NCBI RefSeq assembly: GCF_900143675.1
Contig: NZ_FRFC01000005.1
Location: 124,001 to 188,000, forward strand
Source: Candidatus Nitrosotalea sinensis
GTDB taxonomy: Archaea > Thermoproteota > Nitrososphaeria > Nitrososphaerales > Nitrosopumilaceae
Direction: 5' to 3'
DNA: 64,000 nt
Positions 7,345 through 23,784 of the stretch are shown piece by piece (position 1 is the stretch's first letter; each line of letters opens with the position of its first letter). The translations under genes and the position numbers were made by a program. The notes beneath the pieces are model-generated. The model was given only the letters and a program-made list of their open reading frames with translations. It had not been told where the DNA came from and searched no databases.

Positions 7345-7490
7345 TTCAAGGCAGAGTTTGTAATTTTAGGTGTTGATTGTGGAAAAGTTGAGCTAGTTGT
7401 TAATGCACAAGATGTCCTGGTTTTCACATGCAGTGTACCCTTACATGTATTATAAGCAGTACGCAGAATTCATTCCTTACCAGAGTATGA

Positions 7491-7730: not shown

Positions 7731-7811
7731 TTTAATAATCTATGACCGGGTTTTTTCAATAAATACTATTGCCAGAACTCAGAGTCACTGAATTAACAAT
7801 CATTTTGTGTC

Positions 7812-8804
7812 ATGTCTCTAACTCTTCTTCATCGTCTGGCTATCACTATTTTCATATGTCAAATAATAACTAATTGCATTTTATTCAAATATACATCAAT
7901 TTGTCAAAAAACAGTGGACAGAGTAGAGATTGCAGGTTATACATCGGCGTTGCTTTCAGCAGTATTTTTTGGATCGGTTCCGATAATTGCAAAGCCAATA
8001 ATATCAAATGTCAATATACTGCTTCTTTCATCCATAGCATATCTTGCGTCAGCATTAATGTTCACCCCCATTGCAAAAACCAGAGGTACAATTACAAGGA
8101 ATGACTATGCAATATTAGCTACAATATCTATTTGTGGTGCTGCAGTTGCGCCATACATGTATTTTCAAGGACTGAGTCAATCAAGCGCTGCAGATACATC
8201 GTTATTGTCTAACGTAGAGACAATGTTTACAATACTACTAGCGTTGATTTTTTTCAAAGACAGATTAGGTAAGATAGGCGCTATATCAGTTACACTTGTT
8301 TTAACAGGAGTTGTCATAATAACAACAAATCTGCAATTTTCAAGTTCATTGTTACATCTTAATGCAGGGCATTTTCTTATTCTTGGTTCCATGGGATTAT
8401 GGGCAGTGGACAACAATCTTAGTAGAATAATATCCACAAGAATGGACACAGGCAGATTGGTTCAGATAAAATCACTTGTAGGTGGTTTAATTTTATTGTC
8501 AACCGTATTTTTCTTCCAAATACCACTTGCAATAAAATTTGAGCAGATACCATACATAATTACGCTAAGTGTTGTAGGCTTTGGAGGTTCACTTTACTTT
8601 TTCCTTCAAAGTTTGAAGAGGGTTGGCACAATCAAAACAACAATGTTGTTTTCAATGGCATCAGTATTTGGTCTTGTTTTTTCAAGCGTATTTTTACATG
8701 AACAAATAAGCCTGTATCAGACAGTTGCAATTACAATCATGCTTGTTGGAATTTACATGATAAGCAAAAAAGAAGAGGAGAAAAAACAGATTTCCAAGTT
8801 TTAA
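7812..8804 (+). CDS. EamA/DMT-family transporter
   Basis: About ten hydrophobic helices arranged as two EamA repeats identify a drug/metabolite transporter. The first repeat begins around GYTSALLSAVFFGSVPIIAKP, and the second around LILGSMGLWAVDNNLSRI. Substrates in this family range from amino acids to nucleotide sugars and cannot be predicted here. The ATG at 7812 gives an extra 34-residue hydrophobic leader. An in-frame GTG at 7914 would begin directly before the first conserved helix (MDRVEIAGYTS) and is the more likely start. Confidence 0.85.
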   Translation: MSLTLLHRLAITIFICQIITNCILFKYTSICQKTVDRVEIAGYTSALLSAVFFGSVPIIAKPIISNVNILLLSSIAYLASALMFTPIAKTRGTITRNDYAILATISICGAAVAPYMYFQGLSQSSAADTSLLSNVETMFTILLALIFFKDRLGKIGAISVTLVLTGVVIITTNLQFSSSLLHLNAGHFLILGSMGLWAVDNNLSRIISTRMDTGRLVQIKSLVGGLILLSTVFFFQIPLAIKFEQIPYIITLSVVGFGGSLYFFLQSLKRVGTIKTTMLFSMASVFGLVFSSVFLHEQISLYQTVAITIMLVGIYMISKKEEEKKQISKF

Positions 8805-8809
8805 AAATG

Positions 8810-10096
8810 TTAGATTCCCAAATATACTACAAACAGATAGTAAATTACCACATTTACAAGCGTAATAACTATGCCAATCTTGAAGAATTCAAGAAATGTA
8901 AATGCCTTTACTCCTCTTGATTCTGCTGCCTGGATTATGATTATTGTGCTTGCGGCTCCAAGTATTGTGAGGTTTCCTGCAATAGTCGATGAACATGCAA
9001 GCATCATCCATTGTACTATATGTGAACCAGTAAATCCTCCTGCAGACATGACCTGACTGTACAGTGCAACAAATGGAACATTGCTCAATACTTGACTAAC
9101 AGTTGTACTGTATACAGATATCACAGTACTGCTTTGAAAAACATTTTCAGGATTTGGCATGGGAAGATGTTTCAAGAATAAAGAGATTGCACCTGACGAC
9201 CATAATGCACTTGTGAGTACAAACATGGCCGCAAAAAATACCAGTATATGATAGTTCACACTTTTCAGTATTTCAAGTCGTCTGCTGCTTGCAGCATATA
9301 ATGTCATAGCACCAATTAATGACACCAGACTGATGCGTAGATCAAAAATATGCAGAAAAGACAGTATCTCAGATGCGAAAAATCCGCTGATTGTCAACAG
9401 CAATACAACTAGCGATATTTTAGCAAGTTTAGGATCCTCAATTGGTATACTTTCAAGTATGTTGTTGTTTTTGTAATTGACAGACATTTGCAACAAGTCT
9501 TTTTTAAAGTAAATTTTGAGAATATACCAGGTTACAAATAAGTTAAGAATTGTTGGGATTGCAAGGAATTTTATGAAATTTGTAAAGGGCAATGAAATCC
9601 CGCTTTGAACTGCAATCAACAGATTTTGTGGATTACCTATCGGTGTCATTGCACTTCCTATCGTTATTCCAAATGCAAGAGATAGTAGTAGAACTACCGG
9701 TCTTGTGCCAAGATGCTTTGACACATAGATAACAAGCGGGATTCCCACAAGGGCAATAGTATCATTTACTAGAAATGCAGAAAGTAGACCCATGCCCACA
9801 ACAAATGCCATCAGTAACAGTTCAGGAGTCTTTGCCTTTGCAAGCATCTTTGTGGCAACCACTTTGAGAAGACCAGATCTATCAAGAGAGGACACTATAC
9901 TGAACATACCAAACAAGAATAGTATGACATCTATCTGGATTGATTTTATTGCAGATTCGATATCTATTACTTGAAAGAGTACAACAAGTAATGCACCAAT
10001 TGACATTGCCACCCAAATAGGAACTCGGAATTTTATTCGCCCAACAATTAGAACATATACTATTGCAAAGATCGCCAGAGCCACATATTCTTTCAA
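8810..10096 (-). CDS. ArsB/NhaD (SLC13-like) ion transporter
   Basis: A 428-residue membrane protein with about 10-12 helices in two halves, as in the ion-transporter superfamily that includes ArsB, NhaD and SLC13 carriers. Conserved features are FLVNDTIALVGIPLVIY and the helix-hairpin signature GITIGSAMTPIGNPQNLLIA, with a second-half counterpart VLSNVPFVALY. It converges with the DMT transporter, leaving only five bases between the stops. The substrate could be arsenite, sodium/proton or a dicarboxylate. Its start lies 68 bases from the left target-site duplication of the casposon. Confidence 0.85.
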   Translation of the reverse strand: MKEYVALAIFAIVYVLIVGRIKFRVPIWVAMSIGALLVVLFQVIDIESAIKSIQIDVILFLFGMFSIVSSLDRSGLLKVVATKMLAKAKTPELLLMAFVVGMGLLSAFLVNDTIALVGIPLVIYVSKHLGTRPVVLLLSLAFGITIGSAMTPIGNPQNLLIAVQSGISLPFTNFIKFLAIPTILNLFVTWYILKIYFKKDLLQMSVNYKNNNILESIPIEDPKLAKISLVVLLLTISGFFASEILSFLHIFDLRISLVSLIGAMTLYAASSRRLEILKSVNYHILVFFAAMFVLTSALWSSGAISLFLKHLPMPNPENVFQSSTVISVYSTTVSQVLSNVPFVALYSQVMSAGGFTGSHIVQWMMLACSSTIAGNLTILGAASTIIIIQAAESRGVKAFTFLEFFKIGIVITLVNVVIYYLFVVYLGI

Positions 10097-10164
10097 TATG
10101 AAATTAAGAAGTCAGATGTGGTTTATTTCTTATTAATCAAATTTTGCAGAAACATCATAGACAA

Positions 10165-10178
10165 GACATAGAAATGGG
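10165..10178. repeat. Left target-site duplication of the casposon
   Basis: The sequence gacatagaaatggg is identical to 23701-23714. It directly abuts the outer end of the left inverted repeat, with no spare bases. The right copy includes the last four bases of the tRNA-Pro gene, so this left copy is the duplicated fragment. Confidence 0.93.
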
Positions 10179-10212
10179 GGGGTATAGATGGGGACATGCC
10201 GTTTGACCTTTT
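10179..10212 (+). repeat. Left terminal inverted repeat of the casposon
   Basis: Starts ggggtatagatgggg and continues with the core acatgccgtttgacctttt. It is the reverse complement of 23667-23700 with a single mismatch (t for a at the seventh base). The perfect inner match is 26 bp. It is presumably bound and cleaved by the Cas1 casposase. Confidence 0.94.
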
Positions 10213-10286
10213 TTCAGACTAAAAACGAAAGCAAGAACTTTGATTATACTGAAACATGATTTATCGAAGAGAGATTAATCTAGAAG

Positions 10287-10601
10287 ATGTGTTTACCAGA
10301 TACAATGGATGTGTACAAGGATCCTCATAAATTTGAAAAAGAACTTGCAAAGATTAATGCCCAATTAACTATCGTAGCAACTGGAGGTTCGGTCTTTGCA
10401 ATCTTTGGAGTTTCTTTATTCATTTTGGGTGTTACGACTGGTTTTGATGCCATCTCAAAAACTGGTGAAGTAATGACCCTTCTTACCATCATTAGCAACG
10501 TTTACTCTCAGTTTGGGATTTTCATATTTTTTATAGGCATTTCAGTTCTAGTTTTGGCTCAGTTTTTGATTCCTCGCAAAATCGACAAGCTGAAGTATTA
10601 G
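10287..10601 (+). CDS. Small two-helix membrane protein in casposon
   Basis: A 104-residue protein of unknown function. A short charged N terminus is followed by two hydrophobic helices (around VATGGSVFAIFGVSLFILGV and FGIFIFFIGISVLVLAQFL) and a basic C terminus. The ATG at 10305 (MDVYKDPHKFEKEL) is an equally plausible start. It is the first gene inside the left terminal repeat. No recognised family. Confidence 0.6.
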   Translation: MCLPDTMDVYKDPHKFEKELAKINAQLTIVATGGSVFAIFGVSLFILGVTTGFDAISKTGEVMTLLTIISNVYSQFGIFIFFIGISVLVLAQFLIPRKIDKLKY

Positions 10602-10611
10602 ATGTAAAAAA

Positions 10612-10905
10612 TCAATCAGAAACTTCTCTAAGATCCATATTTGGAATTATGATTGAATCTCCTTTTGTAGGGTCTAAATCTACGTTCTTGGTGGCTTCTC
10701 TTATACTGTCAAATGTTTTGACTGAACTTTCATGATATGTGCATTTTATATCATGAGAAAGAGCTTTCATGCATTTGTGAATTACTTCCTCTTCTGATTC
10801 TGCAAAATCTACAATTGCCCTGTTGGCATCCTCCATTATGTAAAAAGAGGGATTTTTCATTTCTAGGAGTTGCTTTATTGCATATTTTAGAATAATAACT
10901 GTCAT
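10612..10905 (-). CDS. Hypothetical protein in casposon
   Basis: A 97-residue soluble protein, acidic and mostly helical, with no cysteine pair, no transmembrane helix and no motif that I recognise. It converges with the two-helix protein gene, 10 bases apart. Codon use looks like that of its neighbours, which is the main reason to keep it. Confidence 0.5.
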   Translation of the reverse strand: MTVIILKYAIKQLLEMKNPSFYIMEDANRAIVDFAESEEEVIHKCMKALSHDIKCTYHESSVKTFDSIREATKNVDLDPTKGDSIIIPNMDLREVSD

Positions 10906-11064
10906 ATGATTTGTTCTAGATTTTTGTGGTTTTAAGATTTTATGTTATTTTGTATTTGGAAGATATCCTCTTATTTCATAGTAATTCCATTTGATCATAT
11001 ATCAAAGCATGAATGAAAGTAAGAACCAAAAATTGTTTAAATTAATCAAGCGCTAATCAAAAAC

Positions 11065-11511
11065 ATGATAATTGAAGGCATTATACTCATAATAAAATTA
11101 CTAAGTGGAAAAGGAGTGATAGGTTCGATAAGTGGTGCATCAGCTGGTACAGCTGCTAGTACAATTGCCAAGAGTACAATATTTGCAAAATCTGGTTTAA
11201 CGGGTGAAATTGGTTCTAATGCAATCGGGATAGGAATTGGTGAAAAGGTTGGTAATTCAATTGAACAATACAGGGAAAGACGCAAGTCATTTTATTCTAA
11301 ATGGCCAAAATCACAAAGAGAATTTGAGAAAAGAAATAAGGAAGAAGGAAAACGACTGGAGAAGTCTATGAAAGCGATGGAAAAGAATAGAGAGAAAAGA
11401 AATAAGGAAGAAGGAAAACGACTGGAGAAGTCTATGAAAGCGATGGAAAAGAATAGAGAGAAAAGAAATAAGGAAGAAGGAAAACGACTGAAAAAACTAA
11501 TGAGTGCATGA
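11065..11511 (+). CDS. Repeat-containing coiled-coil protein with glycine-rich hydrophobic N terminus
   Basis: A 148-residue protein. Residues of about 1-65 are glycine/alanine-rich and hydrophobic (GSISGASAGTAASTIAKS), like a membrane-inserting hairpin. Residues of about 85-148 are a strongly basic charged helix made of 22-residue repeats of the type EKRNKEEGKRLEKSMKAMEK, about two and a half copies. The repeats are exact at DNA level (66 bp), so they arose recently by tandem duplication. A membrane-active or coiled-coil role is an inference only. The gene lies in the left, accessory half of the casposon. Confidence 0.6.
   Translation: MIIEGIILIIKLLSGKGVIGSISGASAGTAASTIAKSTIFAKSGLTGEIGSNAIGIGIGEKVGNSIEQYRERRKSFYSKWPKSQREFEKRNKEEGKRLEKSMKAMEKNREKRNKEEGKRLEKSMKAMEKNREKRNKEEGKRLKKLMSA
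11326..11490 (+). repeat. 66-bp in-frame tandem repeat, about 2.5 copies
   Basis: Copies begin at 11326, 11392 and 11458. The first two are identical over their length, and the third diverges after about 33 bases. The period of 66 is a multiple of three and of the 22-residue helical unit, so copy-number change keeps the reading frame. Confidence 0.9.
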
Positions 11512-11535
11512 ATCAATTTATATGATTTTTTTTAC

Positions 11536-12498
11536 TTACGGATGAGTTAGAACCATATCTTTAAGTTTCATTTTTCGTATCGCGCGTTTTCCGCTCATAA
11601 CCGTAATAGTCGGATTTGTATTTCCAACATCTTGTGGCAATAGTACGTTTCCACCTCCACCAGATCTAATATGTCTTGGAAGTATACTGTTATCATCCCA
11701 CCATTTGCATGGGTCTTTGTTACATAAAATGAGGCATGCTTCTACGGTCTTGCTTGGATGTAGTATTCTCACGTATTCTTTTCCATTTTCAAAAAATTTC
11801 TCCAAGGTAAAATTATGCATCATATTCTTTCTCGTACTTTTCTTCTTCAATAATTTTAGTTCGATGAGCGATTTTTTAATATTTTTATGATATCCCAGCA
11901 TTTTTCTTGCTACTTTGAGACTCTTGGTTCCTTTTTGAGTATTGCAAGAACGATGTGAGAGTTTTACATTAGTTAGATCTGTAGCTCCTCCTTTAGCAAA
12001 GGCTTGAGTATGTTCAAATTCTGTGTCTGATATTCCGTGAAGTTTTCGTCCGCAAAGATTGCACATGTGAGGATTCAAGTCCCAGCATTTTTTTTCTTGT
12101 GCATGTGTTAAGTTTCTAGGTTTTTTGGTATTCTTGATTTTGGTTTTATGGATCTTAAGATCTTTTAACAAATCAATACTGTCATAGATGGACTGAAGAT
12201 TTTTCAGATCCTTGTCCATCCTATACCTAAAATCATGTACCATTTCATCAAGATCCCTTTCACCACTTGATAAAGTAGGTGTCAGATAATGAAATTGTTT
12301 TACTAGAATTTGATTATCATCAATTAATTCAAGTAAATTCTTAGTTTTGTCATACCATTTACTTCGTTGAATGTTGGCTGCTTTCAGATCACTTTCAGAA
12401 AATATATTGTATTTCTGAATGGTACGACCTTGTCTTAATTGCAGATCTATTCTTTTATGTGCTTCTTCTATTGGAATTGTGAATTTAGGACGAACCAA
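11536..12498 (-). CDS. HNH endonuclease (casposon-encoded)
   Basis: A 320-residue protein whose middle holds a classical HNH nuclease with a zinc-binding CxxC (C146, C149). The active-site strand EFEHTQAF (H163), N177 in DLTNVKL, and SHRSCN (H182, C185) follow in the usual spacing. The N-terminal 130 residues are helical, and the C-terminal 110 residues are of unknown fold with a GGGGN loop. HNH nucleases are frequent casposon genes; their role in transposition or replication is not established. The motifs are complete, so the enzyme should be active. Alternative roles are DNA processing for the element or anti-host or anti-phage nuclease. Confidence 0.85.
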   Translation of the reverse strand: MVRPKFTIPIEEAHKRIDLQLRQGRTIQKYNIFSESDLKAANIQRSKWYDKTKNLLELIDDNQILVKQFHYLTPTLSSGERDLDEMVHDFRYRMDKDLKNLQSIYDSIDLLKDLKIHKTKIKNTKKPRNLTHAQEKKCWDLNPHMCNLCGRKLHGISDTEFEHTQAFAKGGATDLTNVKLSHRSCNTQKGTKSLKVARKMLGYHKNIKKSLIELKLLKKKSTRKNMMHNFTLEKFFENGKEYVRILHPSKTVEACLILCNKDPCKWWDDNSILPRHIRSGGGGNVLLPQDVGNTNPTITVMSGKRAIRKMKLKDMVLTHP

Positions 12499-12550
12499 GA
12501 ACTATTGATCATTTATTCATCTACATAATAAAGAGAATCACAACATTGAC

Positions 12551-13372
12551 TCATACCTGTAAATAATTGCATTTCCCTTTTAATTCTCCCTCGTATCTAA
12601 TAATCTGATTTAATGAATTTCTTAAATCGGAAAGCAAGGATAGTGATTTTTTAGATATTTCTTTTAATGGATTTGTCAGTTCGGTTATTTCCGGTTTATT
12701 GACTATTTCTTTTATTACTGGCAATGTACCGTTTTTAGAGGATACATTGTATAGATTTGGCCAACGTTTTATATCGTCATGAAAAATGCAATTTAAAGCA
12801 ACGGCCACGGTCATGCTTATTTTATTTTGTTCATTTTGTTGCACGTTAATTGATCTTTCTAATTCATCAAAGAGTTTCAGTACAAGAACATTGAATTTCT
12901 CATGGTAAATGGGATAACTTTCATCTATATACTTCTGAACTATTCCTATCTGTTTTTTAATTTCTGGATAATGATTATCCAAATCATTGTATAACACGTT
13001 ATCTAGGAATATCATTTCATTTCCATATGAAGAACTTGAATTAATTATTGAAACCCACAGTTTGACATCCATTGTTTCTTTTAACTCCCGATCATTCATT
13101 AAATCTAGAAGAGATTGTTTTCCATATAGCGTGGATTCATCTATGCGAAAATGACTTGTGACATTATCAACACCATTTACAAGTAATTCTAAACAATTCT
13201 TTTTGATTTTGTCAAAATGGATTTGACGCGCTTGACTAGTTTTCTTTATTTTTTCAGATCTATGTGGACTTGTCCACGCGATTAGACTAGACATTACAAT
13301 TGCTATGACTGAAATTGCAAGAGATGCGATACTAAATACAAGGCTTGCATTCCATGAAAAATCTGTTCCCAT
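12551..13372 (-). CDS. Hypothetical protein with N-terminal membrane anchor
   Basis: A 273-residue protein with one hydrophobic helix near the N terminus (SIASLAISVIAIVMSSLIAW, residues about 15-34) followed by a long charged, mostly helical cytoplasmic domain. I recognise no catalytic motif. It lies in a minus-strand run with the HNH gene and the next membrane protein gene, with gaps of 52 and 65 bases. It is probably accessory cargo. Confidence 0.65.
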   Translation of the reverse strand: MGTDFSWNASLVFSIASLAISVIAIVMSSLIAWTSPHRSEKIKKTSQARQIHFDKIKKNCLELLVNGVDNVTSHFRIDESTLYGKQSLLDLMNDRELKETMDVKLWVSIINSSSSYGNEMIFLDNVLYNDLDNHYPEIKKQIGIVQKYIDESYPIYHEKFNVLVLKLFDELERSINVQQNEQNKISMTVAVALNCIFHDDIKRWPNLYNVSSKNGTLPVIKEIVNKPEITELTNPLKEISKKSLSLLSDLRNSLNQIIRYEGELKGKCNYLQV

Positions 13373-13437
13373 AACTCCATAAATAAGTCAGTCCAAATTA
13401 TATCTTGATTTGATCCTTTCAGAGATTTATGTGATTA

Positions 13438-14097
13438 TTAGTATTTTTTATCAAGTTCGGCATATGTTCTATCATTGAGTTCTACTAACTCTGTTATGAT
13501 TTTATGTCGTAGATCTTTTATGACTAATTTTTCCATCCAATATTCTTGTAAATCTTTTTCAGATAAATAATTGAGAATTTTATTGGTTGAATAAAACGTC
13601 AAAAAAGGTAACATGACAATTAATCCAAATACTATCGAAATGATTTCAAATACGATGGCAAAATCAGGCGATATTACATTTGACCAATTGGATGCTATTA
13701 TGGCTATTACGCCTACCACAACACCCAATATGCCCAAAAAATTATCTGTAAATCTCTTTTCCAAAGAAGGAAGTTTGGGTATTTCTGCCAAATATTCATT
13801 TATTGTCTTCATTGCCTCTTTAGAAAATTCATTACTTCGTTCAGTTCGCCAGTAGTTTATTTCATGTAATCTTAAGATATTGATTAACGTAGAGCGAATA
13901 TCTTTCCTAATTCGATTCGAAGCAAAAGGTAAATCATACGTATTTGTTGAAAATATTTTAAACCACTTCCATCCTGCAACTCGTTTAAGAAATTTATATT
14001 TCTGAAGGAACCGTTTGTCTCCTGATCCTCTATTTGCTACAGAACGTAACTTGTCATATTTTTCTAATAGCTTCTTCAGATCATCATTATTATGCAC
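13438..14097 (-). CDS. Hypothetical two-helix membrane protein
   Basis: A 219-residue protein. A basic helical N-terminal half is followed by two membrane helices (around NFLGILGVVVGVIAIIAS and FEIISIVFGLIVMLPFL) and a charged helical tail. The pattern of two central helices flanked by helical cytoplasmic domains resembles the general form of pore-forming effector proteins, but I see no diagnostic motif. It lies 39 bases downstream of cas1 on the same strand and could be co-transcribed with it. Confidence 0.65.
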   Translation of the reverse strand: MHNNDDLKKLLEKYDKLRSVANRGSGDKRFLQKYKFLKRVAGWKWFKIFSTNTYDLPFASNRIRKDIRSTLINILRLHEINYWRTERSNEFSKEAMKTINEYLAEIPKLPSLEKRFTDNFLGILGVVVGVIAIIASNWSNVISPDFAIVFEIISIVFGLIVMLPFLTFYSTNKILNYLSEKDLQEYWMEKLVIKDLRHKIITELVELNDRTYAELDKKY

Positions 14098-14136
14098 GTA
14101 TAATTTTATGTGATCACCTATTTAAAATTAAATTAA

Positions 14137-15363
14137 TTATTGAATTTTCGATAAAATCTTATCATAAATTTTGATATTCTTTCCTTCTACAATATTCTTC
14201 TTCACATACCAAAGTGTACTCTTGTTGATTCCAAGTTTCTTTCGTTGATCAGGTGTCATCTTCAATATTTTTTCCTTCAATGATATGGTATCATCGTCTT
14301 TAATTTTAAATTCTGTAATTTTCAAATCTAGTTTATTGCTTTTCTCTGAAATAAAATTTGCAAATTCCTGTATTTTGTAAAATAAGACATTATCATAGGT
14401 ATAATTTTTTCCTCGAAATGGAACCTTGGTATTGAAATTGTTCTTTATCTTTTCAATCAATAACTTTGCAGTTGTTTCTCGTAATCTGATATGATAATTT
14501 TCAGTCACTATAAAATCTGATTTTTTCAACTTACTATCATCCAACAACCGGATAACAGAATAATCGATAATCCATCTGAACAACTCCTGAAAATCATACA
14601 CTAGTGCAGTCTTGGCATATGTTGTTTCATGTAAAAATCCAATGACAGGATCAAGTCCTACAGAGTTTAGAGATTTTCTGACTCTGGATTCCAGTATGGC
14701 ATACCCGTAGTTTAGCAATGCATTGACCTCGTCTGACGCATTGACATTCCATGAACTTGACTTGTTCATCCTTCCTACAAATTTGAATTCTGGGGCCAAT
14801 TTTGTGACTAGTTTTTTGAATTGATCAAGGTGAATCTGTGCAATCCTTCCCTCAAAATTCATCAGTTTTTTCAGCTTGTCTGAAATTGGTCTATTTTCAT
14901 CCCTTGAATTTATGGCATAGTTTTGGATTTCATGATCAAACTGTGATTTTACTAGGTTGTATTGTATTACATCATAGAACCGTGACAGTTCCCTAATCAG
15001 ATTCACAGAACTTGAAATTTTGCTATTGACAAGTTCTAGAGCAATTTGGAATCTAGCGGCATCATCCAGGTGCTTTTGATACTGTTTTATGCGTAATTTT
15101 CCCAACTTGGGTTCCTGTGGAAGTGTTATTCCGAGCAGGTTTCCATTCCAGTTTAAGAGAGTTAGATTAATGTCGTGTTTCATTAGCCACCGCATTGATT
15201 CGAAAGTAATGGTTCCAGTATGCCCGTCTACGATGATACTATCATGATCTATTTGATGCGGGTAAAATTCTAATTTTTCATTCTTTAATTTATTTTGAAT
15301 TATCAGATTTCGTTTCTCTACGTTGATTGAAGTTCCAAATCCTGACACCAATAATGGATCCAT
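14137..15363 (-). CDS. cas1: Cas1 family transposase (casposase) with C-terminal HTH-like tail
   Basis: A 408-residue Cas1. The N-terminal beta domain (about 1-90) is followed by the all-helical catalytic domain. Metal ligands are present: E171 in FEGRIA, H245 in GFLHE, and D257 with E260 in VYDFQELFRW, alongside the family block LNYGYAILESRV at 217-228. Residues of about 365-392 (SLKEKILKMTPDQ, LGINKSTLWYVKK) form an extra helix-turn-helix-like segment, typical of casposon but not of CRISPR Cas1. It integrates the transposon ends at the tRNA-Pro target, creating the 14-bp duplication. No cas2 accompanies it. The start MDPLLVSGFG fits the usual N terminus. Confidence 0.95.
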   Translation of the reverse strand: MDPLLVSGFGTSINVEKRNLIIQNKLKNEKLEFYPHQIDHDSIIVDGHTGTITFESMRWLMKHDINLTLLNWNGNLLGITLPQEPKLGKLRIKQYQKHLDDAARFQIALELVNSKISSSVNLIRELSRFYDVIQYNLVKSQFDHEIQNYAINSRDENRPISDKLKKLMNFEGRIAQIHLDQFKKLVTKLAPEFKFVGRMNKSSSWNVNASDEVNALLNYGYAILESRVRKSLNSVGLDPVIGFLHETTYAKTALVYDFQELFRWIIDYSVIRLLDDSKLKKSDFIVTENYHIRLRETTAKLLIEKIKNNFNTKVPFRGKNYTYDNVLFYKIQEFANFISEKSNKLDLKITEFKIKDDDTISLKEKILKMTPDQRKKLGINKSTLWYVKKNIVEGKNIKIYDKILSKIQ

Positions 15364-15414
15364 TCCAATTTATCTTGTAGATCATGCATAAAGATCTTTG
15401 GATAAATAGATACA

Positions 15415-15546
15415 TCCAATAATCCAGCACGGATAATCCAATAATCCAGCACGGATAATCCAATAATCCAGCACGGATAATCCAATAATCCAGCACGGAT
15501 AATCCAATAATCCAGCACGGATAATCCAATAATCCAGCACGGATAA
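15415..15546. repeat. Six perfect 22-bp tandem repeats between divergent cas1 and HTH-polB operons
   Basis: Six head-to-tail copies of 22 bp with no spacer between them. Each unit contains the dyad ATCCAGCACGGAT (ATCC-N5-GGAT), and the junction of units gives a second dyad GGATAATCC. The array starts 52 bases upstream of the cas1 start codon and about 300 bases upstream of the HTH protein. It is not a CRISPR array. It may be an iteron-like binding site for the element's HTH protein, Cas1 or polymerase, and may serve as operator or replication origin. Confidence 0.9.
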
Positions 15547-15565
15547 TGGGCGGTTTTATCAATTC

Positions 15566-15626
15566 CCGCCTGATAGTTTGAGATTACCGTCTTGTTTTGT
15601 TTGTTGACCGTCAGAATATCAGGCGG
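15566..15626. promoter_or_regulatory. Inverted repeat next to the 22-bp array (possible regulatory or origin structure)
   Basis: CCGCCTGATA (15566-15575) and its perfect complement TATCAGGCGG (15617-15626) enclose 41 bases that themselves contain ACCGTC twice in direct orientation. It lies in the divergent intergenic region of the casposon, just beyond the tandem array. It could be a second operator or part of an origin; function is inferred from position only. Confidence 0.5.
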
Positions 15627-15849
15627 TATGATGATATTGTACATACGTATCGCCAAGATGTAACAATAATCCGCACAATGTTGTTTGATTATACATTGGA
15701 TGAGATCTTAGCATGAGATTCTGGATAAATCCGATTTTGAGATCTAAATGTACGATTTTAAGACCCAAACAGAGTATAAATTAGATTATTCCGATTATTT
15801 GGACCGAAACGCGGACTTTATCTTCTTGATCGTTTTATGGTTGATCCTA

Positions 15850-16386
15850 ATGGCTAAAAAACCGAAACAGAAAAAACTCTTTGCAAGAAAAATAAGCAAG
15901 AAGACACACAGAGTTTTAAAAATTGATTTTGATAAATTAACACCAAAACAGAATGCAAATTATGAAGACTCACTTGTTGTTCTCAATAAAATAAAATACG
16001 GTTTATCATTAACTGTAGCATCCAAGCAAGTTGGAATTTCGCCTCAAACTGTTAAACGATATGTTGGCTCTGCATTAAAATTACAAAATCATAAATGGAT
16101 TGCAAAATCATTGGACAGGCTGTTAAGAGAAGTTAGAATTTATGAAAAAGGAAAACAGGTCTGGATAACAGTACGTGGAATAAAGCAAGCAAAAATAATT
16201 GGACAGTATCATTCAGCAATTGGAAGATTATCACAAGGCCAATCTGTACTGAAACCATTTACAAAAATCAAGATCAAGGATGCAAGTGGAAAGATTCATC
16301 ATCTTGAAACAGACATTACAAAGATTCTTGCTATTTTAGAACAACAGGAAGATGCAGAATTTTATTCAATCTATGGGAGAAAATAA
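15850..16386 (+). CDS. Helix-turn-helix DNA-binding protein of the casposon
   Basis: A 178-residue basic protein. A lysine-rich N terminus precedes a helix-turn-helix at about residues 53-73 (SLTVASKQVGISPQTVKRYVG). The frame is open back to 15748, but that extension would encode an implausible hydrophobic leader, whereas the ATG at 15850 (MAKKPKQKK) gives a normal DNA-binding protein. Genes for HTH proteins are regularly found beside cas1 in casposons. It is the first gene of the plus-strand operon and the best candidate to bind the tandem repeats upstream. Confidence 0.8.
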   Translation: MAKKPKQKKLFARKISKKTHRVLKIDFDKLTPKQNANYEDSLVVLNKIKYGLSLTVASKQVGISPQTVKRYVGSALKLQNHKWIAKSLDRLLREVRIYEKGKQVWITVRGIKQAKIIGQYHSAIGRLSQGQSVLKPFTKIKIKDASGKIHHLETDITKILAILEQQEDAEFYSIYGRK

Positions 16387-16388
16387 AA

Positions 16389-16712
16389 TTGGATAATGCT
16401 CTTGATTCCATTGAACAACTTGTCAAGGAAAACAAGTGGCTAGAACAATTCTTTGAAGGTCAAGGTTGCTGCATATGGTGTTTTCATTCTGATCCTTTTG
16501 ATTTGGAAGACAATCATGTGGGTGGAAAAGTCAATAGTGATTTTACATTATCCATGTGCCGAAATTGTCACGGCAAGTTTTCAAGAAAACAGTATGGCTG
16601 GCCAAAAGGATGGTCAAGGAAAAACAAGAGCGAGCGGCAAAAAACAGCATGCCTTTTGATCGGACTGGGCGACATCATTCGAGGAATGGGGGAAAGGATG
16701 TACCATGAATGA
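16389..16712 (+). CDS. Small HNH-type zinc protein of the casposon
   Basis: A 107-residue protein starting at TTG two bases after the HTH gene stop. It has a compact HNH-like core: C28 and C31 (CIWC), then LEDNHVGGK with N42-H43, then CRNCHGKFSRKQ with C57, C60 and H61. The two CxxC pairs would bind zinc, and the H43 strand resembles the HNH active-site strand. Its end overlaps the start of polB by eight bases, so the two are translationally coupled. It is likely a nuclease or DNA-binding cofactor for replication; this is inferred. Confidence 0.75.
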   Translation: MDNALDSIEQLVKENKWLEQFFEGQGCCIWCFHSDPFDLEDNHVGGKVNSDFTLSMCRNCHGKFSRKQYGWPKGWSRKNKSERQKTACLLIGLGDIIRGMGERMYHE

Positions 16713-19395
16713 TGAGATAGCCGCTATTCGTGCCTATACCATTCCCAAGCAGGAACCAGACACAAAACAGCCCAAATTTTTCCATAAAACCATCCAGAAT
16801 TTCATCCGGATGATGATTCTGGACTGTGAGGCCACAACTGACTTTTATCACAATCTCAAGTTTGGATACTTTAAGGTAATTTTTCACGGCAAGTTGGATT
16901 ACCACGGGATATTTTATGATCCCTTGTTTGTCAAGGGCAAAGAGTTTAATGTTTTAAAACAATTCTCTGATGAAAATAAAATCAAGATATACACGCTTGA
17001 ACAATTTAGAAAGATTTTCCTCAAGGAAACATTTGACTTGCAGACTCTATGCATTGGATTTAATCTTCCGTTTGACCTTTCCAGGATTGCAATAAAATCA
17101 TCAAATTCAAAATTCAAAAGAAAAGGTGGCTTTTCATTGTTGTTTTCAAAAAACCTTGATTATCCAAGACTGCATGTTACACATGCCACGAGTACACTGT
17201 CATTTATCGAATTTGGTAGTACCATGGGAAAACAAAACAAATTCCGTGGAAACTTTCTTGATCTTAGAACATTATGTTATGCACTGACTGACAAAAAACA
17301 TTCACTCAAATCAGCGGGAAAATATTTCAAGACTAGATACAAAAAGCAGACTGGAATTGAACATGGAAAAATCACGTCACAATACATCCAGTATTGCATC
17401 AACGATGTAAACACAACATATGCCATATATCAAAAGGCAAAAAAAGAATTTGATTCGTATGGATTAAAAATTCCTGTAACTAGGGCATACACTCCGGCAT
17501 CAATAGGAAAAGAATTTCTCAAGATGATAGGTGTTGATTCCTTTCTTGACAAGAATCCAGAATTTCCAAAGAAAATAATTGGTTATATGATGTGCGGATA
17601 TATCGGTGGAAGAGTAGAAGATAAAATTCGCAAGACTCCGGTTTTGGTAGACGTACTTGATTTTCTGTCAATGTATCCTACGGTATGCACCTTGCAAAAC
17701 CTGTGGAGATTTGTAATTGCAGACCACGTAGAATACCTAGAAGCAACTCGTGAGATTGCAGATTTTATAGACAAATTTACTCTGGAGGACGTACAGAATC
17801 CACAGAATTGGACTAGATTGCAAGGAATAGTCCTGATTGAGCCTCATGAGGATGTCTTGCCTCTGAGGGCAAAATATGGCCAAAAACACGTCTGGAATAT
17901 AGGAATCAGCCATGTCACATCAAAGATACCTCTCTGGTACAGTTTGGCTGATGTCATTGCATCAAAACTGTACACTGGAAGGACACCAAAAATCCTCAAG
18001 GCGTACAGGTTTGTACCAGTAGGCGTACAGAAAAATCTCAAGAAGATCAATGTCCAAGGCATTGAGATTGATCCATACAAGGATGATTTGTTCAAGAAAC
18101 TAATCGAATACCGCCAAGTCCTGAAAAATAAATATGATCCAAGGCAGAAGATAATCAAGATAATAACAAATGCAATCAGTTATGGAATTTTTGTTGAAAT
18201 AAACACACTCGAAGAATCATCTAAAGTTCCAATTGATGTTTACGGCATGAAACATTTTACACAAGACAAGACCAAGATTGAAAAACCTGGATTCATGTTC
18301 AATCCTATAATTGCAGTTTCAATTACGTCTGCATCAAGGCTGTTGCTTGCAACCTGTGAAATTTTGTTGTCAAGAAAAAACATGGTTCATGCATACTGTG
18401 ACACTGATTCCATGATGGTTCCACCAGAGATGACAAGAGAGATTCAAGAATTCTTCCAACCATTAAATCCGTATAATTTTGATGCGGATATTCTAAAAGT
18501 GGAACGGGAAAATGTCATGTTCTATGGAATATCATCAAAACGGTACTGTCTTCATACGATAAAAAATGGCAAGATAACAATCAAGAACGATGATTATTCA
18601 TCTCACGGATTAGGTCATTTGCTTGATCCTTTTTCAAACAACCCTGATGAGAAAAATGACTGGAACAAGTACATCTGGAATGACATTATGGATTTGCATT
18701 ATGAAAAATCAAGCCTTGAAGAATTGTATTCCAAGTATGACAACAAGTATGCCATGTCACAGTTCATGGCATCAAGTCCGAGAATGCTTGCAAGGCTGTC
18801 CAACTTTAACAAAAATGATAGATATCAGGATCAATTCAAGCCGTTTAGTTTCTGTATTGTTGGATTTTCAAACCTCATAAATCCGAACACTGGTGAACTT
18901 GTCAAGCCCTTGGCCCCGTTTGTCAAGCCCGCAAGACACGCAGTTTTTGGGGATTTTGTTGATTATAACGACAATTCCATGGAAAAACTACGTGGAAAAC
19001 AATACTGGAAACCATTTTGGCAAATATTCATGGAATACCTGAATCATCCAGAGTCCAAGATAGATGGAGATGTTGGCATACTGGAAAGAAAACATGTCAA
19101 TGTAACCGGAATAATACACATTGGAAAGGAAAGCAATGAACTTGAAGAATCTGAACTGTTGGGAGTAGGTTCAGGCAGTTATGAAACTTATGAGGATGTT
19201 AGAAACTTGGATAAAAAGTTCAAGAAGATTGCGCCAAGCATTTTGAAGTTAAAACCAAAGGATGTCAAAAAAATTAGAATATCAAAACAGACTTTGTGGA
19301 ATGTAAAAAAGAAAATTTACACAAACCAAGTAAATCATATTTCAATGAAAATAAAAGTTCAATTAGTTAGATGCTATGAAATACAGCATAATTGA
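16705..19395 (+). CDS. polB: Family B DNA polymerase (casposon PolB, probably protein-primed type)
   Basis: An 896-residue polymerase with both activities intact. Exonuclease motifs: Exo I LDCEAT (D40, E42), Exo II FNLPFD (N120, D124), Exo III YCIND (Y230, D234). Polymerase motifs: A DFLSMYP (D319), B KIITNAISYG (K485, Y493), C YCDTDS (D566, D568), and SKRY at 611-614. The short spacing and large insertions suit the protein-primed subgroup reported for thaumarchaeal casposons, but no terminal-protein gene is recognised here. Residues of about 845-871 (ILKLKPKDVKK, ISKQTLWNVKKKI) resemble the C-terminal tail of the element's Cas1. It would replicate or repair the casposon during transposition. 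Confidence 0.92.
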   Translation: MNDEIAAIRAYTIPKQEPDTKQPKFFHKTIQNFIRMMILDCEATTDFYHNLKFGYFKVIFHGKLDYHGIFYDPLFVKGKEFNVLKQFSDENKIKIYTLEQFRKIFLKETFDLQTLCIGFNLPFDLSRIAIKSSNSKFKRKGGFSLLFSKNLDYPRLHVTHATSTLSFIEFGSTMGKQNKFRGNFLDLRTLCYALTDKKHSLKSAGKYFKTRYKKQTGIEHGKITSQYIQYCINDVNTTYAIYQKAKKEFDSYGLKIPVTRAYTPASIGKEFLKMIGVDSFLDKNPEFPKKIIGYMMCGYIGGRVEDKIRKTPVLVDVLDFLSMYPTVCTLQNLWRFVIADHVEYLEATREIADFIDKFTLEDVQNPQNWTRLQGIVLIEPHEDVLPLRAKYGQKHVWNIGISHVTSKIPLWYSLADVIASKLYTGRTPKILKAYRFVPVGVQKNLKKINVQGIEIDPYKDDLFKKLIEYRQVLKNKYDPRQKIIKIITNAISYGIFVEINTLEESSKVPIDVYGMKHFTQDKTKIEKPGFMFNPIIAVSITSASRLLLATCEILLSRKNMVHAYCDTDSMMVPPEMTREIQEFFQPLNPYNFDADILKVERENVMFYGISSKRYCLHTIKNGKITIKNDDYSSHGLGHLLDPFSNNPDEKNDWNKYIWNDIMDLHYEKSSLEELYSKYDNKYAMSQFMASSPRMLARLSNFNKNDRYQDQFKPFSFCIVGFSNLINPNTGELVKPLAPFVKPARHAVFGDFVDYNDNSMEKLRGKQYWKPFWQIFMEYLNHPESKIDGDVGILERKHVNVTGIIHIGKESNELEESELLGVGSGSYETYEDVRNLDKKFKKIAPSILKLKPKDVKKIRISKQTLWNVKKKIYTNQVNHISMKIKVQLVRCYEIQHN

Positions 19396-20780
19396 GTAAA
19401 TTTAATGAGACTTTCGAAATGTCGGGTTACTGGTGGCTACCAGATAATCCTACTAAAACAATTCCAGGAATTTTACATTATTCTCCTAACGATATACATT
19501 TGGATTTGATAGGATCATTCACAGATCTGAGCCAATTTCAAAAACAGTTAGAATATCCAATAATTCTTGGTTTTACTACTACAGGTACACCGGTAACACT
19601 CTACAAATGTTTTACCGTACGATTCTCCATGAGTCATCCCTCACTTCCAACTTCATCATACAGAGCTCTCCATTCATTTATTGGAATGCATTTCCCTACT
19701 GAAGCAGATATAAAATTTAACAGGGTCTATGCTCATTTAACTCATTTCGATGAATGGATGGGAGTATCAGGATTTTCTGTTGATCTGGATTCAATGGATA
19801 AAAATAAAATTAGTATTTCGTATTCTCAGCCCCCTGAAATTCGATTTGAATTAAATGAAAAATTTTCAATCTCAATATGGTTTGGATATTCAATGAATGT
19901 CCAATCCATGGATGAAAAACAGCAAGGAATGATACAAAGAATAGCTCTTAACATAGAAGCGAAATCAGAACTACAATTTCAAGAATTCCAGAATATTTTA
20001 TCAGATATCCGTCAATTTCTCGGATTAGCATGTCTAAATCCAATTTATCCTCTGGAAGTAAAAGGATTAACACAAATTAATGAACAAAAAGTAAACGAAC
20101 AAACAATTCAACCAACCGTTTCAATCTATTTTCTACCATTTAACATGCCTACTAAGATCAAAGAAATACCTGCCATGCACATGCTCTTCACATATAGAGA
20201 TATTGGAAAAGACATTGGAAATTATTTCAAGAAATGGATTGAAAATAAGTCTATTCTAGAACCAATTTACAATTTGTATTCAGACATACTACATCATAAT
20301 GAAATGGCAATAGAACACAGGTTTCTTTTTCTTATTCATGCGCTTGAAGCATATCACAGAAGAACTTCAGATGAAACTGAGGTTGATGAAGAAAATCATG
20401 CTATACGTATTAGTGAAATACTGACTGCCATACCTAAACATTCTGATTGGTTACAGATTAAACTCCAATTTAGTAACGAATTATCACTACGGCAAAGATT
20501 GGAGTCACTCTTAAATCAATTCCCATTCATCTTGGAAAATTTTGACTTGGACAATAAAAAATTCATCAGATCAATAGTAGACATGCGCAATTACATTACT
20601 CATTATTCTAATAAGGCAAAAACACAATTTGATGATCTAAAAAAAGTACACGAAATATGTGAACGTCTCAAATTATTGGTGGAATCTTGTCTATTATTTC
20701 AATTAGGGTTTGATGATAAAAAAATATCATTATTGATAGAAAGAAGTAAAATTAACAAAGGATTGAAACGGCCAAGCTAA
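19392..20780 (+). CDS. ApeA-like HEPN protein (candidate anti-phage cargo)
   Basis: A 462-residue protein. The N-terminal region opens with SGYWWLPDNPTKTIPGILHY, the characteristic start of the ApeA N-terminal domain. The C-terminal region is helical and ends in a HEPN fold with the ribonuclease motif RNYITH (R399 and H404, Rx4H). ApeA proteins are abortive-infection type anti-phage factors, and HEPN domains usually cut RNA. The TTG at 19392 overlaps the polB stop, giving coupling; an in-frame ATG at 19419 directly before GYWW is an alternative start. Family assignment rests on motif recognition. It pairs with the protease gene 29 bases downstream. Confidence 0.78.
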   Translation: MSKFNETFEMSGYWWLPDNPTKTIPGILHYSPNDIHLDLIGSFTDLSQFQKQLEYPIILGFTTTGTPVTLYKCFTVRFSMSHPSLPTSSYRALHSFIGMHFPTEADIKFNRVYAHLTHFDEWMGVSGFSVDLDSMDKNKISISYSQPPEIRFELNEKFSISIWFGYSMNVQSMDEKQQGMIQRIALNIEAKSELQFQEFQNILSDIRQFLGLACLNPIYPLEVKGLTQINEQKVNEQTIQPTVSIYFLPFNMPTKIKEIPAMHMLFTYRDIGKDIGNYFKKWIENKSILEPIYNLYSDILHHNEMAIEHRFLFLIHALEAYHRRTSDETEVDEENHAIRISEILTAIPKHSDWLQIKLQFSNELSLRQRLESLLNQFPFILENFDLDNKKFIRSIVDMRNYITHYSNKAKTQFDDLKKVHEICERLKLLVESCLLFQLGFDDKKISLLIERSKINKGLKRPS

Positions 20781-20809
20781 AATGTTTAACTGCAACTAAT
20801 CTTACGACA

Positions 20810-21625
20810 ATGTCGGATCCTATCAATGATTTATGGGTCAATTCAACTATAAGAATTGAAAATGAACAGGGTAAGTTTGGAACAGGTTTTCTAATTCAGA
20901 AAAATACAAAAAAAATTCTTGTGACTAATAAACATGTATTACATGAATGTAGATCGAAAAGAGAATCTACAAATTTTGTATACTTGCACATTAATATTTC
21001 TGAGGATGAACAAATCATTGGGAAAAGAATTCAATTTAACTTACATGCAGATGAACACAAACTTTGGACTGAACATCCGGATGTACAGGTAGATGTTTTA
21101 GGAATTGATGTATCTACAATCTATGAATGTTATCCAAATATGGTTGTAAAACCAGTAGATTCAACTTTAATTTGTGATAGATCATATTTACAACAATATA
21201 ATATTGTAAGTGGAAGACAAATTGTTGTACTGGGATATCCACTAACAGTACAACATACCACTAATGTTCCAATGCGAATTCCGGGATCGATAGTTAGTCA
21301 GATAGGACAGAACATTAGAGATAAATGGAAAAATCCTGATACCGGAGAAACTGAAGATCGAATTATTCGAGGATTTCTCATTGAAAGCAATGTAGCAATA
21401 GGATCCAGTGGAAGCCCCGTAGTCCTAGATACTGTAATCAATATCTTCGGAGGAGAACAAAATACGATTGGTAGACCATTTCCACCGTTTCTTTTAGGAA
21501 TATTGGCCGAAGAAAAATTCACCTATATTGATACTCCCGGTTCTGGAGTACAACCATCATATTCCGGCTTGACTGTAGTTTTTAGTGCTGAAACCATCAT
21601 TGATGTCATAAATTTATTTTCATAA
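20810..21625 (+). CDS. Trypsin-like serine protease, partner of the ApeA-like gene
   Basis: A 271-residue cytoplasmic protein (no signal peptide) with the chymotrypsin fold triad: H42 in TNKHVL, D95 in VDVLGID and S200 in GSSGSP. There is no PDZ domain, unlike HtrA. The gene follows the HEPN gene by 29 bases on the same strand. Trypsin-like proteases without export signals recur in prokaryotic defence loci, where they act as effectors or activate a partner by cleavage. Here it could activate, release or be controlled by the HEPN protein. The active site looks intact. Confidence 0.85.
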   Translation: MSDPINDLWVNSTIRIENEQGKFGTGFLIQKNTKKILVTNKHVLHECRSKRESTNFVYLHINISEDEQIIGKRIQFNLHADEHKLWTEHPDVQVDVLGIDVSTIYECYPNMVVKPVDSTLICDRSYLQQYNIVSGRQIVVLGYPLTVQHTTNVPMRIPGSIVSQIGQNIRDKWKNPDTGETEDRIIRGFLIESNVAIGSSGSPVVLDTVINIFGGEQNTIGRPFPPFLLGILAEEKFTYIDTPGSGVQPSYSGLTVVFSAETIIDVINLFS

Positions 21626-21639
21626 GCGGATTTAGATTT

Positions 21640-22599
21640 CTATTTACTATCTGATTTTTTCTCACGTTTCAATCTTCGTCGATTTTCTTCATATGCTATA
21701 AACTGTCCTGCAACAGTTGCTGGGTAAGTCAAACTAGCAAAAAGAATTACTAAAATTATCTGAGGAATTTCAAATTGATATCCAAACAAAATAACACTAA
21801 CAGAAGATAATGGCGCAGAGTAGATAGACGACAATGATTCAGTAGCTAAAAGGAAAATTGACATAAAGTAAATATTTGGAATACCGGGTCGTATCAAATC
21901 TGTTACTTGTGCATAATAATACATAACAAGAAAAATACTAATAATTCCTAGAGCAATTGTTAGAATTGAAATTTGAGGACTCCATAATTTAAAATCATTA
22001 TGATGCTGTTCATCCAATGAAAGAAATACGGCTGGAGAAAAAGCAACTGCGAATACGAGAAGATAAGTTGTATGTTTGTAATACCTATTGTAAGCATAGA
22101 TCATATTAGATGCAATTTTGACCGTGTTGTTAATTTCTGCAGTTTCAAGTATATCGGTTAATGAAAGTGCAATATTGGCAGTTTTTACAATTATTGCCAA
22201 TACCCATCCAGACCAAATTATGACAGTCCAACTGTACGAAACATGTTGTAAATTCTGTGAAATTATAAAAACAAATAGAAAACCATAGATTGTTATTAAA
22301 ATTGTAAAATTTCTACTTAGTTTATCTACTATTTTTTGTAGTTGTCCTAAATCAAAATTGTCATACGGTGTAGGAGGAAATGGTACATATCTCTTATATT
22401 TTGAAATATAATTCTTAACGGATTTATTATATTTCATCAGTATTGCAAGTCCAATGGCCACCGAAAGTATGATGACCATTGGTAGAATATTCCAGATTTG
22501 ACCATGTATGGATGCAATTTGATCAGATATGCCTAGAAATTCTCCGAGTTCTAATTCCATATAATTGGTAAAATCTAAGATGGTAAAAATATGATCCAT
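21640..22599 (-). CDS. Hypothetical polytopic membrane protein of the casposon
   Basis: A 319-residue protein with about seven or eight hydrophobic helices, including WNILPMVIILSVAIGLAIL near the N terminus. A basic C-terminal tail (ENRRRLKREKK) marks the cytoplasmic end. No transporter signature is recognised. It converges with the protease gene with only 14 bases between stops. It might be a membrane partner of the HEPN-protease pair, or unrelated cargo. Confidence 0.7.
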   Translation of the reverse strand: MDHIFTILDFTNYMELELGEFLGISDQIASIHGQIWNILPMVIILSVAIGLAILMKYNKSVKNYISKYKRYVPFPPTPYDNFDLGQLQKIVDKLSRNFTILITIYGFLFVFIISQNLQHVSYSWTVIIWSGWVLAIIVKTANIALSLTDILETAEINNTVKIASNMIYAYNRYYKHTTYLLVFAVAFSPAVFLSLDEQHHNDFKLWSPQISILTIALGIISIFLVMYYYAQVTDLIRPGIPNIYFMSIFLLATESLSSIYSAPLSSVSVILFGYQFEIPQIILVILFASLTYPATVAGQFIAYEENRRRLKREKKSDSK

Positions 22600-22645
22600 A
22601 CTGATTCAATGCAGTCCAACCTATAACATATTGTGATATGTACAA

Positions 22646-22663
22646 AAAAGGTCAAACGGCATG
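22646..22663 (+). repeat. Internal copy of the casposon terminal repeat (18 bp)
   Basis: The 18 bases aaaaggtcaaacggcatg are identical to, and in the same orientation as, the inner part of the right terminal repeat (23667-23684). The outer 16 bases of the terminal repeat are not present here. It lies between two minus-strand genes, 47 bases before the membrane protein gene starts, and looks like a remnant of an earlier right end or a cryptic one. Confidence 0.85.
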
Positions 22664-22673
22664 AAAAATAACA

Positions 22674-23267
22674 CTAGGGAATTCTACAAGCCAAGAAATC
22701 CAAAAACTGTTTTCTACAAATATTCGCACCTATTACCACCATTCCAAACGAACCAGCTATCAAGTGCAGGTTAGAGTCTTGGGAATAGGTAAATGATAGT
22801 AAAACTAACTGGCTTGCAAAAACTCCCAATAGCATGAAGACAAAGTCCATCCCGACTAGGATGGCGGTCTTTGAAGGATCAGTCTTTGCTCGTCGATAAT
22901 TCCTTATTACTGAAACTGCAAATCCCACAACCAAACTGATTTCAAAAACATGGTAATTGTTAAGTAAATTAAAAAAGTCGTACGTAACTGATGGATCCTT
23001 GTAAATTAAATTTAAAACCCCGATGATAAAGTAGCCAATGCTAAAAATCATCAGCGCTGTCAGTTCGATTGTGTTTCTTACTGTCATCGATATCTTCTTG
23101 ATTCCATTTACAATAATTCCTTGATGTTTGAAAAGAAATGGTAATGCATAATGAAATATTGAAGCCCAAATTGCGGCCCAGAGGATGGTTGAGGCACTTA
23201 GAAAATCTCCCATTATGCTTGCAGGTCTTGTTGCATATGGGAAACTCATTAACATGGATAAGGTCAT
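22674..23267 (-). CDS. Hypothetical polytopic membrane protein (right-end segment of casposon)
   Basis: A 197-residue protein with about five or six hydrophobic helices (for example STILWAAIWASIFHYALPFLF, SIGYFIIGVLNLIY and FVFMLLGVFASQLVLLSF). No motif is recognised. It lies between the internal and terminal copies of the right repeat, so it may have been captured after the rest of the element was assembled. The function is unknown. Confidence 0.65.
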   Translation of the reverse strand: MTLSMLMSFPYATRPASIMGDFLSASTILWAAIWASIFHYALPFLFKHQGIIVNGIKKISMTVRNTIELTALMIFSIGYFIIGVLNLIYKDPSVTYDFFNLLNNYHVFEISLVVGFAVSVIRNYRRAKTDPSKTAILVGMDFVFMLLGVFASQLVLLSFTYSQDSNLHLIAGSFGMVVIGANICRKQFLDFLACRIP

Positions 23268-23293
23268 TCTGATAAATAAGTTAGTATCATATG

Positions 23294-23599
23294 CTACATC
23301 GGCAAATTCGCATTACAATTCATGCAGTATTTCTGACCACTGCCATCAGTATCATGGTCTTTCTTTGGATGCCTGCAAACAATCTTTGTTCTGTGTTGAT
23401 CTGGCAAAAGTTGTCTTTTAATTGCCTGTAACCATTCAATGTCTCCTTGTAACATAGACCACATTGCTCTATCAAATCGATTGATAATATCACCTTGAAT
23501 GAGAGGCGGTAATTCCTCAGAACCTACTACTTTTGTTCTAAACTCCTTCTTTTCTTGAATCAAAAGATCAATTGACGAAATTGCCTTTTTTACAGCCAT
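23294..23599 (-). CDS. Small zinc-finger protein (right-end segment of casposon)
   Basis: A 101-residue protein. A charged helical N-terminal region is followed by a C-terminal zinc-binding site of the form CRHPKKDH then YCMNC. It is the last gene before the right terminal repeat and precedes the membrane protein gene by 26 bases on the same strand. A DNA- or RNA-binding role is possible; no family is recognised. Confidence 0.6.
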   Translation of the reverse strand: MAVKKAISSIDLLIQEKKEFRTKVVGSEELPPLIQGDIINRFDRAMWSMLQGDIEWLQAIKRQLLPDQHRTKIVCRHPKKDHDTDGSGQKYCMNCNANLPM

Positions 23600-23666
23600 G
23601 TATTGTCAAACGTTTTCTGGGATAAATCTAGTGGGTAATTTTGTAATTTCTTAAAATATAGTTATC

Positions 23667-23700
23667 AAAAGGTCAAACGGCATGTCCCCATCTTTACCCC
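23667..23700 (-). repeat. Right terminal inverted repeat of the casposon
   Basis: Reverse complement of 10179-10212 with one mismatch. It begins aaaaggtcaaacggcatg on the plus strand and runs to tttacccc, directly against the right target-site duplication. Confidence 0.94.
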
Positions 23701-23714
23701 GACATAGAAATGGG
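23701..23714. repeat. Right target-site duplication, overlapping the tRNA-Pro 3' end
   Basis: The sequence gacatagaaatggg is identical to the left copy. Its last four bases are the final bases of the tRNA-Pro gene (discriminator and first acceptor-stem bases), so insertion happened at the 3' edge of the tRNA and left the gene whole. Confidence 0.93.
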
Positions 23715-23784
23715 ATCGGCCGGATTTGAACCGACGACCTCAGGTACCCAAAACCCGAATCATGCCAAGCTAGACCACGATCCC
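23711..23784 (-). tRNA. tRNA-Pro (anticodon UGG)
   Basis: On the minus strand the 74-nt cloverleaf has a seven-pair acceptor stem GGGATCG/CGATCCC, a D arm with AGCTTGG, an anticodon loop TTTGGGT (anticodon TGG) and a T arm GGTTCAAATCC. The discriminator base is A and no CCA is encoded. No intron is visible. Its 3' end is the integration site of the casposon; tRNA-Pro is also the reported target of the Aciduliprofundum boonei casposon. Confidence 0.95.

Follow-up and report, generated by a model that had tools for sequence, protein, structure and literature searches.

The question raised by this locus is why the integrase and the DNA polymerase of one mobile element should end in the same kind of module. 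The 64,000-nucleotide stretch of Candidatus Nitrosotalea sinensis analysed here (contig NZ_FRFC01000005.1, positions 124,001 to 188,000; hereafter the window) contains a casposon: cas1, encoding the casposase, and polB lie between terminal inverted repeats (TIRs) with a target site duplication (TSD). The two genes are divergent, and the C termini of their products face outwards. An earlier note on this DNA had claimed that both proteins carry an equally spaced helix-turn-helix (HTH)-type tail, which could bring them to the same site. The sequences read bear out the segments and their spacing, with residues 366-391 of Cas1 being ILKMTPDQRKKLGINKSTLWYVKKNI (window 14191-14268, minus strand) and residues 846-871 of PolB being ILKLKPKDVKKIRISKQTLWNVKKKI (window 19240-19317, plus strand). 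Judged from their profiles, the two tails are homologous (paralogous) HTH-type modules, homologous also to the family 2 casposase HTH. We consider it fairly probable that they have different targets, the PolB tail reading the ends of its own element and the Cas1 tail probably the tRNA T-loop leader beside the insertion site.

Aligned as a single pair, the tails gave a Smith-Waterman score of 74, which none of 5000 shuffles reached (fitted p 2.7e-4), and the score of full-length Cas1 against PolB was equalled in 2 of 500 shuffles. Such single-pair statistics are only moderately significant and too weak on their own. The earlier note had proposed profile-profile comparison and structure prediction as checks, and both supported a shared module. 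Comparison of 28 Cas1 tails with 19 PolB tails by hhalign gave a probability of 98.1% (P 6.3e-14, 50 columns), and a PolB-tail profile run against all six frames of the genome found solely PolB (1.9e-29) and the Cas1 tail (6.2e-11). Furthermore, among 177,635 PDB sequences the top match of either profile was the C terminus of 6opm (E 5.9e-10 for Cas1 tails, 0.0071 for PolB tails), the Methanosarcina mazei family 2 casposase, whose C-terminal region is an HTH (PMC6977970). AlphaFold2 predicted four helices in each tail, in register with the sequence alignment, at a predicted local distance difference test score of ~90 for the PolB tail and at low confidence (58) for the Cas1 tail; matches to Pfam HTH families were weak and below cut-off, and the predicted helix order fits a tri-helical HTH. 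Homology was taken as settled because the profiles of relatives were decisive where the single pair was only moderate.

The tail was present on all 36 intact casposon-type Cas1 open reading frames (ORFs). Three of 39 near-full Cas1 ORFs had no tail; two of these were CRISPR-like and the third was truncated at the end of a contig. Absence of the segment from the polymerases of relatives, which the earlier note had named as grounds for giving up the idea, was not observed: a hidden Markov model found the tail in 40 of 46 PolB ORFs reaching the end of the core, and in the other six it was divergent or frame-shifted. In a tree of tails, 37/37 Cas1 tails fell on one side together with the family 2 tails (support 0.77) and 33/33 PolB tails on the other, indicating an old divergence rather than copying within each element. 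Tails are nevertheless exchanged now and then, since two polB 3' fragments in one Thermoplasmatota genome (L110, 8096-8506 and 11432-11842) carry a Cas1-type tail.

The two tails differ in how their recognition helices vary. In the TIRs, the tip GGGGnTATAGA is conserved. The inner block, located ~22-34 nt from the end, comes in about a dozen classes, and the PolB recognition helix does too. The helix ISKQTLWNVK goes with RTTTGACC, the block class of the window's own element, ISRSNLISLQ with ACCCACGTGG, ISERGLRNFK with ACGTGCCGC and ISQQxLYKIK with AGTTGTGATTTT. Over 29 elements the Mantel correlation between helix and block was 0.62 (permutation p 2e-4); here and below, permutation values are a measure of strength and not a planned test, because the pattern had already been noticed when data set and classes were defined. 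In the 16 elements of the Thermoplasmatota type, a label that includes a few elements (L008/L113, L181) from other archaeal lineages, r was 0.75, and the 16 residues directly upstream in the same PolB tail, used as a control, gave -0.11. Ten of these 16 elements have the PolB segment that precedes the tail, and controlling for it gave them a partial r of 0.85 (p 2e-4). The same partition was seen between two elements of one genome (G250), whose PolB C termini agree at 74/78 residues before the helix and at 11/33 after it; their TIRs agree at 21/24 nt of the tip and at 7/12 of the inner block. The sole check made after the classes had been set was an element outside the data set (G563) with the tail ISQQALYKIK, where the expected block AGTTGTGATTTT stood at apparently both ends, these being two contigs with matching duplications. 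This covariation is new, having no description in the casposon papers cited here.

In Cas1, by comparison, the helix columns INKST were invariant in 28 tails, across all TIR classes. The target was likewise uniform: in 7/7 elements whose ends were defined from TIR and TSD alone (L004 and L041 being one element, counted once), TTCAAATC stood 8 bp before the TSD, at the 3' ends of tRNA-Pro (window, L040, L041), tRNA-Glu (L005, L042) and tRNA-Ser (L043, L058). Two more Thermoplasmatota elements, one at tRNA-Val, fit the rule and were found by a motif-started search. A pattern search requiring TTCAAA returned many more junctions, which were not counted because this would be circular for the leader rule. 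Tandem arrays in two Nitrosopumilaceae genomes adjoin, with unchanged spacing and no recognised tRNA, TTCAAATT or TTCAAACT, and at some junctions identified solely from the TIR tip the usual leader is replaced by TTCGAATC. No EF-2-inserted element was found among the loci examined. Leader mutagenesis established that the family 2 casposase of Aciduliprofundum boonei requires TCAAATC, placed 8 bp before the TSD (PMC6614799). Read from the junctions, the target rule of these family 1 type elements (TTCRAAT, 8 bp, TSD) is the same as that of A. boonei.

Several further arrangements were noted at these ends. The elements inserted at tRNA 3' ends, where TTCAAATC precedes the TSD by exactly 8 bp, include L173. 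The leader motif and the inner TIR block lie ~22-24 nt either side of the TIR tip (window 23667-23730 and other ends), and in the RTTTGACC class they are in mirror orientation about it. One region (G175:C1 1415217-1497934; L048, L049, L056, L198-L200) holds tandem casposons with one common duplication, AATAACATTGTGCT, and several cas1 copies.

These observations suggest a division of labour. From the covariation, the sub-terminal TIR block, here RTTTGACC at ~22-30 nt from the tip, is probably what the PolB tail reads. The tail would thereby bring the polymerase, which probably uses a protein primer, to its own element's ends to replicate it. The Cas1 tail probably reads the invariant leader TTCRAAT of the tRNA T-loop, 8 bp from the TSD, and would thereby position the integrase for site-specific integration; the joint invariance of tail and leader, the A. 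boonei mutagenesis and the finding that removal of the HTH leaves the M. mazei casposase inactive (PMC6977970) all point this way. The two tails would have diverged long ago and would no longer read a common site. We lean slightly towards the further view that matched pairs of helix and inner block diversify and are exchanged as cassettes, each polymerase replicating only its own element, even in tandem arrays, while the Cas1 tail stays fixed because its tRNA T-loop target is fixed.

A number of results weigh against this division of labour. In Nitrosopumilaceae alone the partial r was 0.16 (p 0.13), so that the link between tail and TIR is there inseparable from PolB phylogeny. In most Thermoplasmatota elements only 57-150 bp separate the 3' end of polB from the TIR, and tail and block could therefore travel together by linkage. 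The polB 3' end and the neighbouring TIR might then have been swapped as one segment, the homologous tails binding DNA without matching specificity, and the divergence in G250, which starts at the recognition helix and extends across the inner TIR block, fits such a swap. Linkage alone is argued against by the opposite TIR, kilobases off, which bears the same inner block wherever both ends were found, as in G482. Moreover, the classes still match where polB ends 0.7-4.3 kb from the TIR (Nitrosopumilaceae and G497/G482), and the TIR tip does not diverge alongside the inner block. We regard hitch-hiking of this kind as rather unlikely. On the Cas1 side, the joint invariance of tail and leader cannot show that they are paired, and TTCRAAT, being present in nearly all tRNAs, may mark a tRNA target by other means. 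NitAR1, the one purified family 1 casposase, integrates site-specifically in vitro at the ef-2 site; it is coded by CP003842.1 655943..656986 (1044 nt, 347 aa), the length of the core without the tail, and appears from this to be tail-less, which a natural loss, a frameshift or the annotation might explain. The role of the Cas1 tail at the leader is for that reason the weaker of the two. Foldseek with the PolB tail gave no useful match, and no binding of DNA by the M. mazei HTH on its own was observed (PMC6977970). The latter finding, together with the disorder of that tail in the crystal (PMC6977970), would suit modules for protein-protein docking or stabilisation of multimers rather than for reading DNA; since the helix order is HTH-like and the variation of PolB is concentrated at the recognition-helix position, where it correlates with DNA sequence, we think this very improbable.

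Could both tails nevertheless bind the TIRs or the 22-bp array near cas1, co-localising integrase and polymerase, as the earlier note proposed? The tails are homologous, and the block of the ISKQTLW class, read as GGTCAAAY from the opposite strand, is similar to the leader GGTTCAAATC, the PolB helix of that class being the nearest to that of Cas1. Tested over the classes, Cas1-like PolB helices were not significantly associated with TIR blocks that resemble the leader (rho 0.40, p 0.10), a result that favours neither a shared site nor our own reading. One invariant Cas1 helix faces about a dozen inner-block classes, while the PolB helix covaries with the block of its own element. The array was also rejected as a common binding site, since its units are not conserved among elements: other elements' arrays differ in unit sequence or are absent. 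A single site for both tails is unlikely, and we give co-localisation at the TIRs or the array little credence. The homologous HTH-type module on both proteins is supported, and the idea that it brings them to the same site is not. Arrays of 22-bp period with differing units lie near cas1 at window 15414-15545, L041 11286-11332 and L058 9001-9145.

The features of the window's casposon are collected in the table. It is inserted at the 3' end of tRNA-Pro (23711-23784), and its TIRs are 34 bp long, GGGGTAWAGATGGGGACATGCCGTTTGACCTTTT. The internal copy of the inner block lies ~1 kb inside the right end, with 0 copies expected in shuffled sequence; further copies of the block were seen in relatives (L041 7427; L043 15816).

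Table. Coordinates of the casposon, its ends and the two tails in the window.
Feature	Position	Strand	Remarks
Whole casposon	10179..23700		13,522 bp between TIR outer ends; TIR pair and 14-bp TSD found without the leader motif
Left TSD, GACATAGAAATGGG	10165..10178
Left TIR, GGGGTATAGATGGGGACATGCCGTTTGACCTTTT	10179..10212	+	tip GGGGTATAGA; inner block GTTTGACC at 10201-10208
cas1 (casposase), 408 aa	14137..15363	-	Pfam PF01867, E 5.1e-57; 6opm, E 3.3e-69 over full length
Cas1 C-terminal HTH-like tail, residues 345-408	14140..14331	-	recognition-helix segment INKSTLWYVKKN
polB, 896 aa	16705..19395	+	PF00136 match below cut-off (E 4e-4); elements of family 1 type have orthologues
PolB C-terminal HTH-like tail, residues 825-896	19177..19392	+	recognition-helix segment ISKQTLWNVKKK
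Inner TIR block, third, internal copy without tip, CATGCCGTTTGACCTTTT	22646..22663	-
Right TIR, GGGGTAAAGATGGGGACATGCCGTTTGACCTTTT, read inwards from tip	23667..23700	-
Right TSD, GACATAGAAATGGG	23701..23714		overlaps tRNA-Pro 3' end
Leader motif, TTCAAATC (tRNA T-loop)	23723..23730	-	8 bp before TSD

The library matches of PolB (PF00136 and phrog_17) were weak, and orthologous PolB proteins occur in related Nitrosopumilaceae elements. Two ORFs lie just upstream of polB (15748-16386 and 16389-16712); the 212-aa product of the former has a weak HTH match and a very weak NCBIfam match to telomere terminal protein (E 0.061), and as a candidate primer protein it is worth testing. The element also contains an HNH nuclease gene (11536-12498, PF01844, E 5.1e-10) and, at 19392-20780, a gene for an ApeA-type HEPN protein (PF18862, PF18739), a candidate anti-phage defence gene. 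The viral and phage collections searched held no relatives.

Elsewhere, many short remnants keep the Cas1 tail region alone (L067-L077, L079) and seem to outnumber those from the rest of the gene. The idea that a third gene family bears the tail was rejected, the other tail matches inspected being cas1 or polB fragments or tail-only remnants, and an AsnC/Lrp-like match in the same genome (L003) reflected general HTH similarity at chance level. In L005 (9983-11205) the tail of Cas1 is out of frame with the core, and the 347-aa length of the NitAR1 casposase may have a similar origin. In L110 (G250:C20:16001-36000), long ORFs of HEAT-like 40-residue repeats (768, 989 and 283 aa) alternate with polB 3' fragments over 6926-14129.

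The pairing of Cas1 and PolB tails is itself already known. The earlier note's statement that no casposon with the tail on both proteins had been described is wrong, as similar C-terminal HTHs on Cas1 and PolB were reported for family 2 casposons (Krupovic et al. 2014, PMC4046053). Family 1 Cas1 was described as lacking an HTH domain (PMC4046053, PMC6614799), and the published targets of the family 1 casposons of Thaumarchaeota are ef-2, another protein gene and intergenic sites (PMC4046053, PMC6563490). What is new is the tail on family 1 Cas1 and family 1 PolB, and the tRNA target rule in family 1 type elements, which extends the rule of A. boonei. The tails of the elements examined contradict the published description of family 1 casposases as lacking an HTH, a description that is part of the basis for regarding the domain as dispensable. 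A specific role is offered for a domain needed in M. mazei integration. A helix covarying with the terminal repeat suggests how the polymerase of a self-synthesising transposon finds its own ends, and about a dozen natural helix-site pairs make the role of the tail directly testable.

Compared with known systems, the element combines traits of both casposon families. With family 2 (AciBoo-C1, MetMaz-C1) it shares the homologous Cas1 tail and a similar HTH tail on PolB, a tRNA-gene target (TCAAATC 8 bp from the TSD in family 2) and an HNH gene inside the element; tip, A-run and inner block are arranged alike in the published MetMaz-C1 TIR (PMC10359463) and in the Thermoplasmatota relatives. In contrast to family 2, its PolB probably groups with the family 1 type, which is protein-primed and of the thaumarchaeal kind. 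Family 2 has two distinct HTH proteins, and the one weak HTH match outside the tails was in the protein encoded upstream of polB. With family 1 (NitAR1-C1 and others) it shares a thaumarchaeal host, divergent cas1 and polB, a 14-bp TSD with TIRs and perhaps the small genes just upstream of polB, of which family 1 has 3-4 conserved ones and the window the two ORFs named above. It departs from published family 1, defined by a Cas1 without an additional domain, in the tail on every intact Cas1 and in sites that, where resolved, are mostly tRNA 3' ends. CRISPR Cas1 shares the Cas1 core and has no tail, and plasmid-borne matches annotated as cas1 end at or before query residue 342 among the 30 listed of 44 matches.

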